Assembly (NCBI GenBank): GCA_016937215.1
Contig: JAFGWI010000150.1
Location: 1-33,590 of the forward strand
Length of the DNA stretch: 33,590 nucleotides
Origin: Spirochaetales bacterium
GTDB taxonomy: Bacteria > Spirochaetota > Spirochaetia > SZUA-6 > JAFGRV01
Direction of reading: 5' to 3'
Position numbers and translations under genes: made by a program. Numbering within the stretch: the stretch's first letter is position 1; each line of letters begins with the position of its first letter. Shown here piece after piece: positions 4,052 to 29,355 of the stretch. The notes below the pieces were generated by a model, which saw only the letters and a program-made list of their open reading frames with translations, had not been told where the DNA came from and ran no database searches.

Positions 4052-4132
4052 CAGCCGCGAATCTGATTTTTCAATTTTCTCGTTTTAATAAATCAAAATA
4101 AAATCCATATTTGTCTAACCTCTTTACTTTTT

Positions 4133-4386
4133 GGACATTGCCTGGTTAGCCAGGGGCTTTATCAGGCTTGGCCATTTGGCAATAGGCTGCCGCTTCGAAG
4201 GTTTTCGTGCTGGTAATAAATACACTGTATTTATGGCTCGCTGACATGAATGCTCATTGGCATTCACTATTGACGTGATTGCTCATTGGCATTCACTGTA
4301 CACATGCGACCATGCCGGAAATTATCCGGCAAAAAAGGCTTAGCTTGCAATTTTCCAGAAAATGACAAGCCATGTGTCCCTATCCA
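4133..4386 (-). repeat. Degenerate copy A of the modular stem-loop element
   Basis: Read on the minus strand, this stretch keeps the order of modules seen in the better copies: a head resembling TAGGGAC...GGCTT near 4386-4370, an imperfect first hairpin (about 4341-4370), an AAGCCTTTTTT-like linker, a second stem with GCCGG/CCGGC partners, the CCTTCGAAGC box near 4192-4200, an AAAGCCCC remnant of the core, a short third hairpin CCTGG-TTAG-CCAGG (about 4140-4155) and a degraded tail. Many core positions are changed and the closing stem no longer pairs well. The interior of the second hairpin is enlarged and holds two copies of a 29-base tandem repeat. The assignment rests on module order rather than identity. 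Confidence 0.5.
4242..4299 (+). repeat. 29-base tandem repeat, two copies
   Basis: 4242-4270 and 4271-4299 are adjacent 29-base units differing at only a few positions. Each contains the 18-base run TGCTCATTGGCATTCACT, and the first copy also reads as an interrupted palindrome (GAATGC-TCATTG-GCATTC). The pair sits within the interior of degenerate element copy A, upstream of flaB. Confidence 0.8.
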
Positions 4387-4474
4387 TAAGCCATTTATAG
4401 CCAAATTGTGATTTAGCTGAACAAATACTAAAATTCTACCCGCTCAAACCGCCCTGAATAAAAAAATAAAAAAG

Positions 4475-5555: not shown

Positions 5556-5611
5556 ATTTCAAATTTTGGTTTAACATTTGTTTAGCCAAAGCTTACGTTT
5601 CGATTCAAACA

Positions 5612-5890
5612 GGTTAGGGATCGGAGCCATGAGAGCGCATTTTTTAAAAAATGCGCTCTCAAAGCGTTTTTTCCCGGTTAATTTCCGGGAAAAAACCTTC
5701 GGAGGCGGAAGCCGAAGTGGCCGAGAGCCCGGCCAGAGCCCTTTCAGGAAAGCCATTTTACATTTGGACAGCCACTTGACAAACAAAGATAACAGCCCTT
5801 TTTTAAGATTGCATAATGATCGGACAAATGTAAAATGGCCTCTCCATGGACTGATAACAAGGCGCATTGATAAAGGGCTGGGGCAACCCC
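5612..5890 (+). repeat. Copy B of the modular stem-loop element
   Basis: Head GGTTAGGGATCGGAGCC from 5612; hairpin 1 is a perfect 30-base palindrome at 5631-5660 (15-base arms); linker AAAGCG; hairpin 2 has 11-base arms at 5667-5677 and 5685-5695; core with CCTTCGGAGG and a GGC-GGAA-GCC mini-hairpin ends in AGCCCGGCC at 5734; third stem AGCCCTTT at 5737-5744 pairs AAAGGGCT at 5872-5879; tail AACC at 5885-5888 pairs the head GGTT at 5612-5615. The third stem encloses about 127 bases with their own perfect 15-base inverted repeat (5752-5766 with 5825-5839). It fills the gap between flaB and the end of the TPR gene. Reading frames across it are by-products of the palindromes. Confidence 0.85.
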
Positions 5891-5931
5891 CATCTCCTGA
5901 AAAAAAATAATAGCCCCGATAAAATGTCAAA

Positions 5932-11976: not shown

Positions 11977-13026
11977 TTACAAGATATCACGAATAAGTTT
12001 AGCTCGCATTAAATCGTTATTTATTTTTGTAGATTGGTTATCCTTCTGAGAAGGATAATTCCTGATCTGGTTTTTTTGCGACAAAAATAACAAGGAAGTA
12101 ACTTGCCCCAGAGAATGGTCTTCAACAAAACCCATATTAACCCCCAGCCGAATGATGGAAAGCAGCTCCATGGCCTCCTGTGAAGAAAGCGAAGAAGAGT
12201 ATTTTAATATTTCTCTGGAACGTTCAATTTTTTGCCTTAACTCAGATTCCTTTTTTTCTATTAACGCATTCCGAATTTTCCTTTCCAAACTGATAAGAGG
12301 AATCAATAATTCCCTGAAACCATCGAGAAAAGAGTTTTCATTAAAACCAATGGACCATTTATTGCTGATTTGATAAAGCGATGCTAAAGTGGAATTTCCC
12401 TGCCCTCTGTAGCATTTGACCAAAAGCCCCTTATCCATGATGATTTTCAAAGTATCCTGAATAATGGAAGAAATCTCCAAGGCTGGCAAATGAACAAGAA
12501 CCGAGACTTGCAAACCTGAACCAGCATCCTTTAAGGAAGAGCTTTGATAGCCCCATTTCAGGGAAACAGCATACTGAATAAGCTTTTCAAGGCTTTTGTC
12601 AATGTAAAGGCAATCAGCATAGGCATCGATCAGGCTTAATCCTCCCTTGATAGTGGAAATTTTAAGGTGGTCCTGATCCATTAATGTCAAGGATAGATTT
12701 TTGCTTTTATGAATACCTATAACAGAATAGAGATTTTGAATTAAAGCATCTGAGGCAATATTTCTCTCAACAATAAGATCCTTTTCTTCAGTTGTTAATT
12801 CATTCATCGCGTAAAAATCAAATTGAGACGCTAAATCGGATTTTTTGATCATGGAGATGATCAACTCTAGGGCGGCATTTTTCTGTTCATCGCTCATTTG
12901 ATGAGGAAAGGGATAACCCTGAATATTTCTGACAAGTCCGATTTGACTGGATAGAATAATATCGCTCTCAGGGCCTTGCTGATAAAACCAGTTAAAATGC
13001 TCAATTGTTTTTGTTAAATTACTCAT
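11977..13026 (-). CDS. mcsB: McsB-like protein, probably a catalytically inactive protein-arginine kinase
   Basis: A 349-residue homologue of the phosphagen-kinase-fold protein-arginine kinase McsB, which in Firmicutes tags proteins with phosphoarginine for ClpCP. The fold is recognisable throughout (GPESDIILSS at 18-27, VLVHLPALE at 176-184, LYQISNKWSIG at 218-227, LGVNMGFVE in the C-terminal helical part). Yet the motifs that bind ATP and do catalysis are changed: SSRIRLARN is SSQIGLVRN (26-34), NEEDHLRIQ is MDQDHLKIS (116-124), SCPTNVGTGLRAS is SSLKDAGSGLQVS (163-174, one residue shorter in the loop), and YGEGSEA is RGQGNST. The C-terminal RDxxRA phosphoarginine-pocket motif is NDLMRA. The ATG at 13026 fits the usual McsB start; it overlaps mcsA by eight bases. 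An upstream in-frame start at 13059 is less likely. The frame is intact, so a regulatory or adaptor role is inferred. Confidence 0.85.
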   Translation of the reverse strand: MSNLTKTIEHFNWFYQQGPESDIILSSQIGLVRNIQGYPFPHQMSDEQKNAALELIISMIKKSDLASQFDFYAMNELTTEEKDLIVERNIASDALIQNLYSVIGIHKSKNLSLTLMDQDHLKISTIKGGLSLIDAYADCLYIDKSLEKLIQYAVSLKWGYQSSSLKDAGSGLQVSVLVHLPALEISSIIQDTLKIIMDKGLLVKCYRGQGNSTLASLYQISNKWSIGFNENSFLDGFRELLIPLISLERKIRNALIEKKESELRQKIERSREILKYSSSLSSQEAMELLSIIRLGVNMGFVEDHSLGQVTSLLFLSQKNQIRNYPSQKDNQSTKINNDLMRAKLIRDIL

Positions 13027-21916: not shown

Positions 21917-21990
21917 ATAGCAGCAACCAGCTTTGATGAAAATTTAATGAGGAATTTTAAAGCAGAGGCATTTTTCGGTTTTGGTTAAAA

Positions 21991-22188
21991 GGGCGTATCC
22001 CGGTCCAGGATAAAAAGCATTCAACAACACAATAAATCCTCCTGCTTCAACTTTTTATCCAGGACCGGGCCGGGCTTTCTGCCACTCCACTGTCGTTCCG
22101 AAGGTTTTTGACGGGAAATTGTCCCGTCAAAAACGCTTGGCCGCGCCATTTTTGAAAAAATGGCTTGCCTGGCTCCAATCCCTTACGC
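21991..22188 (-). repeat. Copy E of the modular stem-loop element
   Basis: Read on the minus strand: head GCGTAAGGGATTGGAGCC (22188-22171); hairpin 1 with nine-base arms at 22164-22156 and 22153-22145; linker AAGCG; hairpin 2 with perfect 12-base arms at 22133-22122 and 22116-22105; core beginning CCTTCGGA and ending GTGGCAGAAAGCCCGGCC; third stem of 19 bases with a single mismatch (22069-22051 with 22017-21999); tail TACGC at 21997-21993, pairing with the head GCGTA. The third stem encloses only 33 bases, so the fold is compact. It lies between the promoter of the long operon and the divergent copy C. Confidence 0.87.
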
Positions 22189-22480: not shown

Positions 22481-22739
22481 ACGCGTTAGGGATTGGAAGC
22501 CAATTTTCAGGTTTTTCAAAACCTGAAAATTGCCTTTTAAGGCGCGCTTAATAAGCGCCTTAAAAGGCCGAAGCACCAGCGGAGTGCTGCAAAGCCCGGC
22601 CTGCCTGCGCGAAAGAAATAAAGGCATAAAGATTTTCGCGTAAAACCAGGCAAGGCATTTTGATAAAAGATTTAACGATTGTCAAAATGTTACCTTGCCG
22701 CTATGATGCTAGAAACAAAGAAAAAGGCAGGCAACGCCC
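22481..22739 (+). repeat. Copy C of the modular stem-loop element
   Basis: Head GCGTTAGGGATTGGAAGC from 22483; hairpin 1 has perfect 15-base arms at 22501-22515 and 22518-22532 around a two-base loop; hairpin 2 has perfect 13-base arms at 22533-22545 and 22555-22567; core with an AGCAC/GTGCT stem ends in GCAAAGCCCGGCC; third stem CCTGCCT (about 22600-22606) pairs AGGCAGG (about 22726-22732); tail AACGC at 22733-22737 pairs head GCGTT. The third stem encloses about 120 bases holding an imperfect inverted repeat (GGCAAGG...ATTTTGA with TCAAAAT...CCTTGCC) and a promoter. It lies directly before the 1605-residue gene. Confidence 0.87.
22679..22707 (+). promoter_or_regulatory. Promoter inside element copy C
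   Basis: TTGTCA at 22679-22684, a 17-base spacer and TATGAT at 22702-22707, each one base from consensus. It points out of the element toward the gene at 22805 and would give a leader of about 90 bases. Confidence 0.55.
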
Positions 22740-22770
22740 AAAATCACTTGATTTTTAAAAAAACCGATAA

Positions 22771-22798
22771 TGGACAATCGCCAAAAGCATAGTATACT
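22771..22798 (+). promoter_or_regulatory. Promoter next to the 1605-residue gene, leaderless start
   Basis: TGGACA at 22771-22776, a 16-base spacer and TATACT at 22793-22798, with six bases before the ATG at 22805. No ribosome binding site is present, so a leaderless mRNA is suggested. Confidence 0.6.
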
Positions 22799-22804
22799 TA
22801 AGAT

Positions 22805-25800
22805 ATGAAAGCAGCTTTGTTTATCCTGTACCTCCTGTTTTGCTCCCATCTTTTTGCCCAAAGCCCTGCTATCATGGAAAGTGAAACCAAAGAAACTCCC
22901 CAGGCAATTTTGGATTTCAAACTGGGCGACAGTGAAGTGGATTTTTTTATTACCGGTTCCTGGGAATTGTCTTTGCTGGGATGTTTTGGTTTTATCGTTC
23001 ACCCGGAAAATGGCATACAGGGGCTTGATGGCTTTAATGATTTTGTGCCCGGAATTATCTTTGAGCAATTACCTGATATTACTCTTTCACTTTGGATCAT
23101 GAACATGTTTTTTCTTGATTTCACTTACCGAGGCGATTTTGAAGACAATTTGTTTTTAATGGGTTACGAGGGTGATGGTTCCATTCCCTTGAGCCATTTA
23201 TACATTGGTAATCGTGAGATCATCTTGCCGCCCTACCCCTATATTACCGTGCCTGAGGCCGGGCAATCCTCCATTGGAATCGAGGCACAGTTTTTAACCG
23301 AAAATACCCAGCACGATCTGCTATTGCGATACGATAATAACGAAGAGGAGTCCAAGGTTTATAATGGCAACCGGGAAATCACGGAGCTGCGTATTTCACC
23401 GGCTGATTATATACAGGGGCGTTTTTTTCTTTTGCCTGATCGGGATGTTCAGAATCTGGAGGTGCTGATTCAGGATGCCACAGGGTCTTACACTGACGCG
23501 AATGGCATAAAATACCGCAAAGCTGATTTTGACGACGCCTTTGTTTCGTCTTCTTTGGGAGAAATTGAATTTTACAAGCCAGTGTTTAGCCGGGTTTTAG
23601 TGTATTACGAAAAAAATGGCCTGGCTGTGGGAACAAATGATTCAGGATTGGGTGTGGATTATCTTCCCGCTGAATCAGCCACAATAACTGAGGCCATTGA
23701 TGTTAATCTGCCAGCCTTACGCTTTTATTTTGGTATGGGATCTTATTTAGGTGAAAACATGAGTCAACGCCAAATTTCAATTAATGGCAAGGATTACCTT
23801 TTGATTTACGAGGCCAATATGTTTTCACCCTTTCAAGTGTGCTCCTATTACCCGGCCGGTTCCGGTGATTCCCAATCCACAGCAGGCTCATGGGTAACCA
23901 GGAACAGCAGCCAGGCTTTAAGCGGTTCTGACTGGCCCCTTTTGCAGTACCAGAAAGACAAAGAAAGGCTCAAGGCCTATTACACATCAGACCTTCGTTC
24001 CGATGTGGCCAATCGCTTTCCTTTGATCAATTCAGCCAGTATTATCTATGGCCAGGGTACAGGTAAAACAGACTATCCCTTTGATTACGAGCTTCTTGTA
24101 AAAAACAGTTATCTGGTTGAGCACTATTCCATTGATGAAGATTTTATTCCAAGCAGTGTGCGAATTACGCGAAACGGCCGTGAAGAGACCAATTTTACTG
24201 TGGATGAAGAATCGGGAATCATCAGCTTCACTTTTCCTCCTCTGCCTGGTGAAAAAATCGAGATTTTTTACCGAAAAAAATCATCTGGTTTGAATCAGGG
24301 GGATATTATTGTCGGCTGGGGGAACCGCTTCAAGCTCGATGATTCCCAGGAAATCAAGGTGGCAGCAGGTTTACGATGGAACCTTTTGCCTGGTGCCTAT
24401 ACAGACAAAGGCTTTTCACGGCGGGGCGCCCTGCTTGCCTCTACTTCCTACAATTTGAAGCAGAGTGGTCACGATCTGAATATCAGCCTGGGGGCTTCTT
24501 TTACAAACCCAGATACCACTGGAGTCTTCCGCCTGGCAGGCATGGAAAAACAGAACCTGCTTTTTGAAATGGGCGATTTCGAATTTTATCCAGGCTCAGT
24601 CCCTACTGAACCTGTGGTAGAAAACCTCAATTCCAGTAACCGGGGCATATTAATTTATAAAAATTACCGGTCCTATGATGTTTTTGGTTCCAGCTCACTG
24701 AATCCAATCAGCTGGGACTCACCCGAGGTTTTTGACTATAAAGACAAGTGCGGGCCTTATCTGACCGCCGGTGAGCCAGGCAGTGAAACAACTGGCCAAA
24801 GCCTGGTCATGGATTTCAGCATCGCGCCTGGTCAAAAATGGGTGTCTGCCCAGGTACCTTTGCCCAAGGGAAGTGAGATTTGGGACTTGTCATTTGCCCA
24901 GTCTCTTTATTTCACTTATCGCGGTTTAGATATTGCTCCCCTTTCAGGGGCGTCATTTCAGCTTTATTTACAAATTGGCGAGATTTCCGAAGACCTGGAC
25001 AACGATGGAAAGCTGGATTCAGAAACAGAAGCAGAAGGATTTGTTTTTAACGATACGGCCAATAACGCCGCCCCTTTGCTTGGAACCGACCCCAAAAACC
25101 AGCCGGATTATAAATTTCAAAGCGAGGACATAGACCAGAACGGTTTTTTGGACAATGAAAACTCAGCTTTTTTGCTTCATATTGATGATCCTGCTTTGAT
25201 TCTTTCCGAAGGAGACAGCTCCTGGAAACTTTACCAATACCATTTGAGTTATAGTGATAAAAAACTTCTGGCCAAAAGCCGCGCCATTCGTTTTGTCATC
25301 CTTGATACCACAGCAAATGGAGGCTCCGGTAAATTAGAGATCAACTCGGTGCGTTTGGCCGGAAGCCCGGTAAAAGGCGAAATAGAAAATGGGGACAACA
25401 GCAAGGTGAAGGTCCGGGAAATTCCAGAGAGCTTTAGCCTAGATAAAAGCGCGTCCCAGTCTTTGCCAACGCGCTTTCCTGAGGTGATCACCCTGTTTCA
25501 CAACCAGGATGAAGACCAGCGGATTCTGGAAACCCAATGGTCAGGCCTTGGGGCCGGTGAAAATGTCAAATTATCCTATTACAGCTTAAACCTCAACAGA
25601 AATATCGATTACAGTGAAGTCATTTTTTTCTACCGCCTGCCCCAGTTTACAGCTACAAACTCGGAAAAAATTGAATTCCGCTTTCTTGATGTTAAAGGCA
25701 AGGGGCTTCGCTTTTCCTTTACCCCTTTAGTCCAGACAGAGTGGCAGAAGATAAGCCTTGATTTACGAAAACTCACAGCCACTCAGAATGATATTCCCCT

Positions 25801-27622
25801 GGACGCTAGCCTTTTAAAAGACAGCGACAGCGGCGAATGGATCACTATGGAAGTGGTGATTTCAGGAAGTTCGGCAGGCATCCTCTATCTGGATGAGTTT
25901 TACCAGCAGGAACCCGGTGCCCAGTTGGGAGCAGCCGGCGACATTAACTATCAATGGCTTTATCAGCCGGAGCAACAAGACCAGTCTTTTCTGAAACTCA
26001 GGGAAATCCGCGTGAATCAGGAAGGGGGTTTTTCAACCACAGGTTTTTCAACCCTCTACGGACAACCTGCTGATTATCTTAGCTACTATAACAACAGCTC
26101 TGTTGCCATAAAATTGCTGTTATCTTCGGTTGTCACCCGACTTATGCTTCAGGGGCAGGAAACAGAGTTTACCATCAAAGGGGGCCACACCATCACCGTT
26201 CCAGAACAAGCTGATCCGGTTTCTCTTTCAAACAGCTTCAGTTATTCACCCTCACCCTTTGCCTATGACCAAAGCACAGAAATCAAAGTTTCCCTAAAGG
26301 ATTTTCCCCAATTATTTTCAATCAAAAGCCAGAATAATTATAATCAGGAACAGCTTAATCAGAACTGGAACAGCCAGCTTCAATTTCTCAAGGGGAACTG
26401 GAGCCAAACAAACCAATTAAGCCTGTCTCGAAGCATTGCCAAGGCCCAAAGCGAAAAAAATTATGGCGAAACCTGGCTCAACAGCCTGGGAGCCGCTTGG
26501 CCATACCCAGTTCAGGAAGAAAGCCAGAGAAACCAGGAGCTTCAATTATTCTACACCCTGAACCCTGATCCCTTTGGCGTTTTCGCGACAACCCGGCTGT
26601 CGAGCATGGCTCTTGAGTTCAGCCCCCAAGGATATACCCAAAAATCCGCCTTGAATTATAGCCTTGGCCTTCCCCTGGAATTGAATCTCTCTCAGCTCAT
26701 GACACTATCTATCATTCCATCCTATAGCCGGGATTTATCCATTCAGCTGGACAAATCAGAACACGGTCACTTTTGGGCTGACAGTGAAAATTATTTCAGC
26801 GATGTTTTTTCACAAAGTTACGGTTATAATCAAATTCCCTACTGGGAATTATTCAGTGACCAGCTTGCCCTGCTTTTTCTTGAAAAATCACAAGCTGCTC
26901 CTGCTTCATTTTATCAGCCAGGAGCTGGCATAAAAATAAGCCGTTCGAACGGTTCATCCCTTTGGGACCTTTTCACCCCTTCCCAGCTGGATTTCTCGAT
27001 AAACCGGAATTTCAGCCGTCAGGGAGATTTTATTTCCTTAAAACGGAATTATAATGTGGCTCTGGGCCAACAGGCAATCAATCTCTTTGGCCGCTTTGGC
27101 TCTCATTCGCTTTTCAATTTTTATACCCTTGATAATTTCACCTCCCAATTTAAAGTGGCTCTGGCTGAGGATGAGGTCGCTGATACATGGGAGCAAAACT
27201 ACCAATTCCTGGGAAAGGCCTATTTTGAAAAAAAAGATTCTGGTTCCCTGACCATTGAAGGTGATTTAAAGTGGGAGCTGGGAAAAAACCCGGGCAATTC
27301 AATCAGCCAGTCTAACGCTTTTTTATGGCAGCTTCATCCAGAAAATCCCATCAAAATCCCCTTTCTGGACATAAAAGACCCTGTGGAATACTGGATTGAA
27401 AATAACGAGACCTTGAAAATCGACTTTCAGAACAGGGAAAACACAGCGAATCTTCATTTTTTTAATTTTGAAATGCGCCATGAAACCTCAATAAAATTCG
27501 CGGACATCGGTTATGGCAAAGCCATTCTGGCCTTTGCCATGGATCTTGAGCGTTATGAAAAAGAAAATTCGATCTCCCGGCTGGGTTTCATGGGTGGAAT
27601 CGAGATGAATTTGAAATTTTAA
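22805..27622 (+). CDS. Giant exported protein, probably outer-membrane or surface located
   Basis: A 1605-residue protein with a signal peptide (KAALFILYLLFCSHLFAQ, cleavage after residue 19). The first ~500 residues form beta-rich repeats (PDRDVQNLEVLIQDATGSY and IPSSVRITRNGREETNFTVDEESGIISF). The middle has jelly-roll-like segments and two Ca-binding loops of the D-x-D-x-(D/N)-G-x-x-D type (DLDNDGKLDSE near 730 and DIDQNGFLDNE near 776). The C-terminal ~500 residues consist of alternating aromatic/polar strands ending in Phe, as in large beta-barrels. The overall plan, large size and paired carbohydrate-binding-like segments recall SprA of the Bacteroidetes type 9 system, but this is a weak resemblance, not an identification. 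It is transcribed from its own promoters and followed by element D and two outer-membrane-like genes. Function unknown. Confidence 0.85.
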   Translation: MKAALFILYLLFCSHLFAQSPAIMESETKETPQAILDFKLGDSEVDFFITGSWELSLLGCFGFIVHPENGIQGLDGFNDFVPGIIFEQLPDITLSLWIMNMFFLDFTYRGDFEDNLFLMGYEGDGSIPLSHLYIGNREIILPPYPYITVPEAGQSSIGIEAQFLTENTQHDLLLRYDNNEEESKVYNGNREITELRISPADYIQGRFFLLPDRDVQNLEVLIQDATGSYTDANGIKYRKADFDDAFVSSSLGEIEFYKPVFSRVLVYYEKNGLAVGTNDSGLGVDYLPAESATITEAIDVNLPALRFYFGMGSYLGENMSQRQISINGKDYLLIYEANMFSPFQVCSYYPAGSGDSQSTAGSWVTRNSSQALSGSDWPLLQYQKDKERLKAYYTSDLRSDVANRFPLINSASIIYGQGTGKTDYPFDYELLVKNSYLVEHYSIDEDFIPSSVRITRNGREETNFTVDEESGIISFTFPPLPGEKIEIFYRKKSSGLNQGDIIVGWGNRFKLDDSQEIKVAAGLRWNLLPGAYTDKGFSRRGALLASTSYNLKQSGHDLNISLGASFTNPDTTGVFRLAGMEKQNLLFEMGDFEFYPGSVPTEPVVENLNSSNRGILIYKNYRSYDVFGSSSLNPISWDSPEVFDYKDKCGPYLTAGEPGSETTGQSLVMDFSIAPGQKWVSAQVPLPKGSEIWDLSFAQSLYFTYRGLDIAPLSGASFQLYLQIGEISEDLDNDGKLDSETEAEGFVFNDTANNAAPLLGTDPKNQPDYKFQSEDIDQNGFLDNENSAFLLHIDDPALILSEGDSSWKLYQYHLSYSDKKLLAKSRAIRFVILDTTANGGSGKLEINSVRLAGSPVKGEIENGDNSKVKVREIPESFSLDKSASQSLPTRFPEVITLFHNQDEDQRILETQWSGLGAGENVKLSYYSLNLNRNIDYSEVIFFYRLPQFTATNSEKIEFRFLDVKGKGLRFSFTPLVQTEWQKISLDLRKLTATQNDIPLDASLLKDSDSGEWITMEVVISGSSAGILYLDEFYQQEPGAQLGAAGDINYQWLYQPEQQDQSFLKLREIRVNQEGGFSTTGFSTLYGQPADYLSYYNNSSVAIKLLLSSVVTRLMLQGQETEFTIKGGHTITVPEQADPVSLSNSFSYSPSPFAYDQSTEIKVSLKDFPQLFSIKSQNNYNQEQLNQNWNSQLQFLKGNWSQTNQLSLSRSIAKAQSEKNYGETWLNSLGAAWPYPVQEESQRNQELQLFYTLNPDPFGVFATTRLSSMALEFSPQGYTQKSALNYSLGLPLELNLSQLMTLSIIPSYSRDLSIQLDKSEHGHFWADSENYFSDVFSQSYGYNQIPYWELFSDQLALLFLEKSQAAPASFYQPGAGIKISRSNGSSLWDLFTPSQLDFSINRNFSRQGDFISLKRNYNVALGQQAINLFGRFGSHSLFNFYTLDNFTSQFKVALAEDEVADTWEQNYQFLGKAYFEKKDSGSLTIEGDLKWELGKNPGNSISQSNAFLWQLHPENPIKIPFLDIKDPVEYWIENNETLKIDFQNRENTANLHFFNFEMRHETSIKFADIGYGKAILAFAMDLERYEKENSISRLGFMGGIEMNLKF

Positions 27623-27680: not shown

Positions 27681-27835
27681 GCGTTAGGGATTGCAGCCAT
27701 GTTGACTCATTTTTTCAAAAATGAGTCAACAAAGCGTTTTCCAGCTGATATTTTCAGCTGGAAAACCTTCGAAGGCGAAAGCCGGAGTGGCGAAAAGCCC
27801 GGCCTGCTGGAATGAAATGAAAGCAGGTAACGCCC
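27681..27835 (+). repeat. Copy D of the modular stem-loop element (most compact)
   Basis: Head GCGTTAGGGATTGCAGCC from 27681; hairpin 1 has perfect 14-base arms at 27701-27714 and 27717-27730; linker AAAGCG; hairpin 2 has perfect 12-base arms at 27737-27748 and 27754-27765; core with CCTTCGAAGG, a GGC-GAAA-GCC GNRA mini-hairpin and AAAAGCCCGGCC; third stem CCTGCT/AGCAGG (27803-27808, 27822-27827) with a 13-base loop; tail TAACGC (27828-27833) pairs head GCGTTA over six bases. At 155 bases this is the clearest full form. It follows the giant gene's stop after about 60 bases. Confidence 0.9.
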
Positions 27836-27935
27836 GGAAACTTAAGGTGAAGAATTTAAAAAAAATTATTCTTGTCCAACACAAAAAAATTTCTATAATC
27901 TATTGTCAAAGAAAATTGATTGAATACAATTATAA

Positions 27936-27990: not shown

Positions 27991-29355
27991 ATGGCGCATC
28001 CGAATAAAATTCTTACTTTTTTGATCATCCTATTTTTTTTAATGGGGTCTCAGGCTTTTTCAGAGGAAGAAGCAGAAGATGGCTTTGGTTTTGATTTCAG
28101 CCTCGGTTTGGGTGTTGAAAGCTTTTCCGAAGAACTCAATGGTGAAATGGCTTTAGTCACCTATCAAAAATTAGCCATTAGTCCGGATTTTTCCTTTGGT
28201 AAATTCGGCATAGGCCTGGATTTGATTATTCACTATCAATTCCAGAATTCCGAATTAACCATTCGCTCACAGGATTGGGTGCCAATCAATCCCAATTTTC
28301 AAAACGTCCTGGAATTATATTTGTCCAAGATAAAATACCTGCGATACGGACACAAGGGAGAAGCCATTTATGCCAAATTCGGTTCCATCGACGACGCGAC
28401 CCTGGCCAATGGTTTTATCCTGGGGAATTATTCCAATAGCATGTTCATGCCTGAAAGAAGGATACTCGGATTAAGCCTGGATTTGGATGGTAAACTCTTC
28501 GATTTTCCATTAGTGGGTATTGAAACCCATGTGGGTAACCTTGGAAAATTCGACGTTTTAGGAGCCCGGCTCTTTTTCAGACCCCTTGTTTTCCTGGATA
28601 TCCCGGTTTTCAGTCAAATGCAGATTGGCGGGTCTGTGATTGCCGATACTCAACCCTATGCTTATTCTGATTTACCGGTACCAAATGAGGCGTTAGCGCT
28701 TTTTTTGGGGATTGATGCTTTTCAGCCTCTCATAGCAAGCGATATCACCAATCTGGCTGCTTTTGCTGATTATGCCACCTACAAAGGCAAGTCACATGGA
28801 GGAATGCTGGGAATGGCTGGTGATTTATTCTCCATTTTAAATTATGGGGCACAGATTCGCTTGGCCGGCGATGGTTTTATTCCTGTTTATTTTAACCAGG
28901 GCTATGATCTTAGCCGGGATTACAAATACGAGATGATCGAAAACGGAAATATACCGGGTTTCTTCGGCTGGCTGGCTTCAATAGGAACGGACATTCCGCT
29001 GTTTAACAGCGCCATTGCCCTTGGTTTTTCGCTTGACGGTCCTTTTGGTCAGGTGGTACCCGCAGGTGATGTTAATGAGTATTTGAATTATCCTCATCTG
29101 ATGGGTTATTTTAACATCGGCGAAGGTATTTTGCCGGGTTTCAGTTTTGACGCGTCCTACGACAAGGTTGGTATACAATCTTTTCAAGATATAGTTGATC
29201 CTACAGGAGCCATTATCAATGCGTCTATCAATTACCAAACCGGACCAGCGGTTATCACTTTTTTCTACCAGCTGACCTTTGTTGACGGTGTCTGGCAGGA
29301 AAATGGTACGCCTGATGTGACATCGGGTTTGGAAACATCAATTAAGCTTTTTTAA
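27991..29355 (+). CDS. Outer-membrane beta-barrel-like protein
   Basis: A 454-residue protein with a signal peptide (KILTFLIILFFLMGSQAFS, cleavage near residue 25). The rest consists of short alternating strands rich in Gly, aromatic and acidic residues, ending with a terminal strand IKLF, as in porin-like barrels. ATG at 27991 has AAGGAGG seven bases upstream. From about residue 60 on it aligns by eye with the C-terminal part of the next gene: compare AKFGSIDDATLANGFILGNYSNS with its partner's KVGNMDNFTIGHGLIMKNYAND, and GARLFFRP with GGRVYFDI, so the two are tandem paralogues. No transport substrate can be named. The spacing of 12 bases to the next gene implies one transcript. Confidence 0.8.
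   Translation: MAHPNKILTFLIILFFLMGSQAFSEEEAEDGFGFDFSLGLGVESFSEELNGEMALVTYQKLAISPDFSFGKFGIGLDLIIHYQFQNSELTIRSQDWVPINPNFQNVLELYLSKIKYLRYGHKGEAIYAKFGSIDDATLANGFILGNYSNSMFMPERRILGLSLDLDGKLFDFPLVGIETHVGNLGKFDVLGARLFFRPLVFLDIPVFSQMQIGGSVIADTQPYAYSDLPVPNEALALFLGIDAFQPLIASDITNLAAFADYATYKGKSHGGMLGMAGDLFSILNYGAQIRLAGDGFIPVYFNQGYDLSRDYKYEMIENGNIPGFFGWLASIGTDIPLFNSAIALGFSLDGPFGQVVPAGDVNEYLNYPHLMGYFNIGEGILPGFSFDASYDKVGIQSFQDIVDPTGAIINASINYQTGPAVITFFYQLTFVDGVWQENGTPDVTSGLETSIKLF

Follow-up and report, generated by a model that had tools for sequence, protein, structure and literature searches.

The Flavo-1 motif, Rfam family RF01705 (Weinberg et al. 2010, PMC2864571), has been a candidate RNA since 2010, and its function is not known. 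In the transcriptome of F. psychrophilum, Flavo-1 matches are found sense and antisense alike, and many of them lie beyond transcribed regions (PMC9723704). The repeated element described here is, as judged from its sequence, a three-stem relative of Flavo-1. It is called a relative and not a formal member because all RF01705 matches in its own genome were below the cutoff (40 matches at E<=1, the best with 35.7 bits and none reaching the 42-bit gathering cutoff). No Rfam family was found at gathering level in the window, that is, the whole stretch of 33,590 nucleotides that was analyzed, and a permissive search of the stem-3 region of one copy, copy C, gave no credible family. The element shares with Flavo-1 the conserved ends and core, a variable hairpin tip, and the presence of many copies. 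It differs from Flavo-1 by having two long hairpins, a long stem 3, and far more copies, whereas many Flavobacteriaceae copies have no stem 3 or a very short one. The genome also seems to hold a further subtype that is closer to Flavo-1 and scores just under the Rfam cutoff (L091, positions 12368-12504, and about 30 more RF01705 matches, e.g., GCGCGAGGGATTGAAGCGGAAACCCC). Literature searches by motif sequence and by repeat terms returned nothing on this element.

The structure was modeled from an alignment of 18 compact copies, and a covariance model, R1, was built. The element is closed by a stem of GCGTT and AACGC, inside which lies a second stem, GGGATT/AAAGCCC; in addition, it has hairpins 1 and 2, one small hairpin, and, adjoining the 3' end, stem 3. 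Covariation was found in the form of double-sided changes at 29 of the 47 pairs in this alignment, and the conserved core reads GCGTTAGGGATnGnAG ... AAAGCCCGGCC ... AACGCCC. With R1, at least 150 copies were found genome-wide (150 of 150 scored candidates matched), and 170 were counted in a 1.19-Mb sample made up of longer contigs and covering 23% of the genome. Extrapolation gives about 730 copies per genome, a rough figure because the sample was drawn from longer contigs. The element occupies 2.6% of the sample, and its copies are nearly all intergenic, with 5 of 129 lying within a long ORF. The ends are sharp, with GCG at one side and AACGCCC at the other, and the flanks are often T-rich before and A-rich after the element. 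A pattern scan of viral contigs gave no match. We also observed that 18 of about 40 sampled contigs start inside a copy or within 20 bases of one; these contig starts (position 1) include those of L089, L093, L097, L108, L111, and L115, as well as L117, L120, L126, L132, L133, and L141. The assembly is thus broken at the hairpins of the element.

The distribution of the element among other genomes was then examined. A scan with the exact core pattern, for which about 0.85 chance matches are expected in the whole collection, gave at least 21 loci among the matches listed, mostly in Flavobacteriaceae and other Bacteroidota, plus one Spirochaetes and one Fibrobacter locus. Rfam assigns Flavo-1 to two of the Flavobacterium exact-core loci. 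R1 detected copies in all 8 genomes tested, with 66 in one Flavobacterium; according to both the core pattern and this cross-detection, the conserved core and the closing stem are common to the element and the Flavobacterium copies. The copy number spanned 0 to >100 across 25 Flavobacterium genomes. With filters stricter than those used elsewhere, four genomes of the same family gave no match, and three other genomes of the same class gave two or three weak matches each. Stem 3 among the relatives is absent, a few bases long, or up to about 50 nt; it is missing, for example, in several Flagellimonas/Muricauda loci (GGCCAACGCC).

R1 detected five copies in the window (A to E). They are listed here with their R1 scores and with the stem-3 features of copies B and C; the closed stem 3 of copy C was found by script, and the hairpins nested in it were obtained by DNA folding.

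4131-4392, minus strand: copy A, decayed (25.9 bits)
5611-5891, plus strand: copy B, with closing stem GGTT/AACC and class IV stem-3 content (100.5 bits)
5732-5884, plus strand: stem 3 of copy B, holding a nested 15-base inverted repeat
21990-22188, minus strand: copy D (81.1 bits)
22483-22739, plus strand: copy C, from GCGTT to AACGCCC (84.8 bits)
22599-22732, plus strand: stem 3 of copy C, 120 nt of single-copy sequence between 7-bp arms
22607-22641, plus strand: nested hairpin 1 in stem 3 of copy C, with CGCGAAA-type arms
22649-22699, plus strand: nested hairpin 2 in stem 3 of copy C, GGCAAGG/CCTTGCC
27681-27836, plus strand: copy E, compact form (159.7 bits)

The stem-3 arms of copy C are GCCTGCC (22599-22605) and GGCAGGC (22726-22732), with 120 nt between them. 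When folded as DNA, this interior formed the two nested hairpins with a z score of -4.0, and none of 200 shuffles was equally stable. A second copy of this content was absent from the whole genome. In copy B, the nested arms at 5752-5766 and 5825-5839 match perfectly over 15 bases (fold z = -2.1), and its stem-3 content has relatives at 7 further genomic places, with 70-91% identity over 32-121 nt. Stem 3 of copy D (21998-22070) has long arms and a 33-nt loop, and that of copy E (27802-27828) has a 13-nt loop. An earlier note on this DNA had set these short loops in D and E against about 120-127 nt with a further inverted repeat in each of B and C and had described the 15-base arms of copy B as perfect; all of these were found where it had placed them, stem 3 of B and C carrying about 120-150 nt. 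In copy A, stem 3 is short but the tip of stem 2 is expanded, with a cargo that includes two tandem 29-nt units (4242-4299). This cargo (4193-4310), in which tandem units of about 29 nt are combined with the palindrome TAAATAC..GTATTTA, occurs at 20 more places in the sample, often in stem-2 tips, yet at about 7 of the 21 places it lies outside recognized copies.

To see how far stem 3 varies, its contents were compared across the 1.19-Mb sample. A long stem 3 (>=34 nt) was found in 37 of 112 closed copies, the others being short, mostly 25-29 nt. Expansion was seen in 6 of 137 copies at the stem-2 tip (p=2e-9 for stem 3 versus stem 2), in 4 of 135 at the small hairpin, and in none of 138 at the stem-1 tip. 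Besides stem 3, cargo is held by the stem-2 tip, as in copy A among others, and by the stretch preceding AAAGCCC. The lengths of the long contents cluster around 60-90 nt; their arms are still complementary, and the AACGCC end is intact. Relatives in the sample were found for 10 of the 37 long contents, and 27, those of C and D among them, had none. One recurrent content, class III (TACAACAATTCCAAATATAAACC ... GTTTATATTTGGAATTG), was present in at least six backbones and only in, or beside remains of, stem 3. No shared motif was found within the long unique stem 3s. With the exception of one related pair, the stretches that they share exactly with the remainder of the sample were 12-16 nt long, compared with up to 16 nt for shuffles.

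Two lines of comparison bear on how these contents came to be where they are. The copies in L092 and L097 have a stem 3 that is 98% identical over 186 nt, whereas the identity of their stems 1 and 2 together is 51%, no better than the 52% averaged by random pairs; the likeness spans the whole of stem 3, arms included, in backbones that are otherwise unrelated. In Mantel tests on 59 copies whose stem 3 is short, stems 1 and 2 were correlated (r=0.45, p=0.001), while stem 3 was correlated neither with stem 1 (r=0.02) nor with stem 2 (r=-0.05). Stems 1 and 2 are therefore co-inherited, and stem 3 is linked to neither. Quick evolution of the short, 26-nt stem could also depress the stem-3 correlations, but it cannot explain the stem 3 shared by L092 and L097. 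At one orthologous intergenic site in Flavobacterium, most of the 29 related genomes have the element and several no recognizable copy, with a spacer too diverged for calling precise empty sites. In two genomes that are 89.8% identical over 4,751 bp at this site, the 5' core of the element was 96% identical and the tips were 27% identical, showing that the hairpin tip had been replaced.

Our favored explanation, which we consider fairly probable, is a dispersed, mostly intergenic Flavo-1-related repeat in which the core is conserved and the hairpins are replaceable modules, stem 3 being the most open position. Most likely, the conserved blocks on either side of stem 3 would allow gene conversion or template switching to swap its content between copies, so that the hairpin with which a copy ends up could be short, could be single copy and about 60-90 nt long, or could hold one of several recurrent palindromic contents. 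Such a process would act on DNA, and the element itself would spread as a nonautonomous repeat. Exchange is demonstrated for the recurrent classes only, because 27 of the 37 long contents had no relative in the 23% sample. The same number is what would be expected if the long stem 3s were random drift or capture, with neither function nor exchange, as would the lack of a common motif. We regard this as unlikely, given the complementary arms, the intact AACGCC end, the clustering of lengths, the concentration of expansion at stem 3, and the existence of recurrent classes. It is also rather doubtful, if somewhat easier to entertain, that the long contents are separate MITE-like repeats transposed into stem 3. 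The recurrent palindromic contents of classes III and IV would fit such nested mobile elements, and so would the copy A-type sequence found outside recognized copies; against them, class III was seen only in stem 3 or beside its remains, and the inclusion of the arms in the L092/L097 likeness suits replacement of a hairpin over insertion. The proposal in the earlier note that stem 3 acts as a cargo slot, possibly for insertions, is supported in part. The slot itself, taken as an exchangeable module, is supported and strengthened: stem 3 is by far the position most often expanded, its contents recur in unrelated backbones, and it is unlinked from stems 1 and 2. Free insertion is a poorer fit than an exchange of modules: class III was seen only in stem 3 or beside its remains, the content of copy C is single copy, and the stem-2 tip and other positions likewise take cargo.

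The mispairs in the stems were counted as an indication of whether pairing is maintained at the level of DNA or RNA. Stems 1 and 2 contained 43 A-C and 40 G-T mispairs among about 3,120 cells, many hundreds of which were altered on both sides; in the core stems, 54 G-T and 16 A-C mispairs were found (Fisher p=0.0003). These counts depend on an alignment fitted to the structure, and a tRNA control for G-T pairs offered 5-6 usable tRNAs, too few for comparison. An RNA constraint should tolerate G-U pairs, and the finding that A-C is about as common as G-T in stems 1 and 2 points instead to a process at the level of DNA. Most simply, such a process would renew these two stems as palindromes, and the core would be read in one polarity, as a folded single strand. 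That each copy is a structured noncoding RNA, with stem 3 as a variable target- or protein-binding arm, would account for the extensive covariation and for the excess of G-T over A-C in the core stems, as in a folded single strand of this polarity. It seems improbable to us because G-T is not preferred in stems 1 and 2, the copies number in the hundreds, no notable exact match to a unique stem 3 was found elsewhere in the sample, and Flavo-1 matches in F. psychrophilum have no consistent orientation to transcripts, many of them lying beyond transcribed regions (PMC9723704). We tentatively suggest that Flavo-1-type elements might be DNA hairpin cassettes and not RNA genes, with a fixed core around which the hairpins, particularly stem 3, would be renewed and swapped as perfect palindromes among hundreds of copies, their RNA-like covariation arising from a DNA process. 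The linkage, mispair, and tip data offer a testable DNA-level alternative for Flavo-1, and covariation alone may mislead RNA discovery when repeats exchange palindromes.

The earlier note had further proposed that stem 3 might bring a promoter to a neighboring gene, as in copy C, in which it had described a promoter-like site directed at a 1605-residue gene. Two plus-strand sites are relevant here.

22679-22707, plus strand: promoter-like TTGTCA-N17-TATGAT in copy C (TTGTCA at 22679-22684, TATGAT at 22702-22707)
22771-22798, plus strand: rival promoter-like TGGACA-N16-TATACT (10/12), outside the element, ending 7 nt upstream of the ATG at 22805

The site in copy C was exactly as described and faces the gene. 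This sigma-70-like site matches the consensus at 10 of 12 positions. When the stem-3 interior was shuffled by dinucleotides, 0.8% of the shuffles scored as well, and for 22600-22804 the figure was 2.2%. The copy strand is that of the next gene in 73 cases versus 35. That the gene downstream receives a promoter or leader from stem 3 is nevertheless quite unlikely. The content of copy C is single copy, the TTGTCA hexamer sits in the 3' arm of nested hairpin 2, the minus strand of the same palindrome holds a rival 10/12 site (TTGACA-N17-CAAAAT), and the other rival lies directly before the gene. Among long stem 3s, 7 sites scoring >=9 were forward (2.6 expected) and 5 were reverse (2.5 expected), in totals that count related contents more than once; this is a mild excess on both strands, without direction, as AT-rich palindromes might give. 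The 73:35 bias leaves some regulatory effect possible, and a preference for one replication strand could also yield it. The promoter of copy C, a single candidate site, would be at most a local by-product; as a general role, promoter delivery is not supported, and the cargo-slot appearance of stem 3 in this genome can be explained without a role in promoter delivery. For the gene itself (22805-27622), no obvious ribosome-binding site was seen, and TATACT ends 7 nt upstream of its start codon; the transcript might be leaderless. Its 1605-residue product has a signal-peptide-like start, and neither this protein nor its 454-residue neighbor (27991-29355) matched a Pfam family at E<=0.001.

Finally, the element was compared with other known repeats. 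No target-site duplication was found, the flank matches being equal to those of shuffled pairing, and in the searched part of the genome, none of the joined flanks of 104 copies corresponded to an empty site; both results count against the favored explanation, as does the lack of a transposase tied to the copies. Two Y1 transposase genes, of 159 aa each, were noted (L158, positions 1471-1950, and L159, positions 1387-1866). About 200 bp downstream of one of these Y1_Tnp genes, and on that side only, lies a copy of the element, and the other gene has no copy nearby; no transposase could be tied to the element copies. Integron attC sites have conserved ends and hairpins that are variable in sequence but conserved in structure, and they act as folded DNA. 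The element resembles them in its conserved ends and its variable hairpins with conserved structure; the RYYYAAC/GTTRRRY boxes of attC were absent from both strands of copy E, and the copies are dispersed singly and not in cassette arrays. Like REP/BIME sequences, which are mobilized by RAYTs, it forms hundreds of dispersed intergenic palindromic repeats in a genome with two Y1 transposase genes, but it is larger, with multiple hairpins, and a copy lies beside just one of these genes, on a single side. With MITEs such as the enterobacterial RU-1/ERIC, it has in common that it is small, noncoding, intergenic, palindromic, and present in many copies; it differs from them in lacking a target-site duplication and in having whole hairpins replaced while the core is kept.
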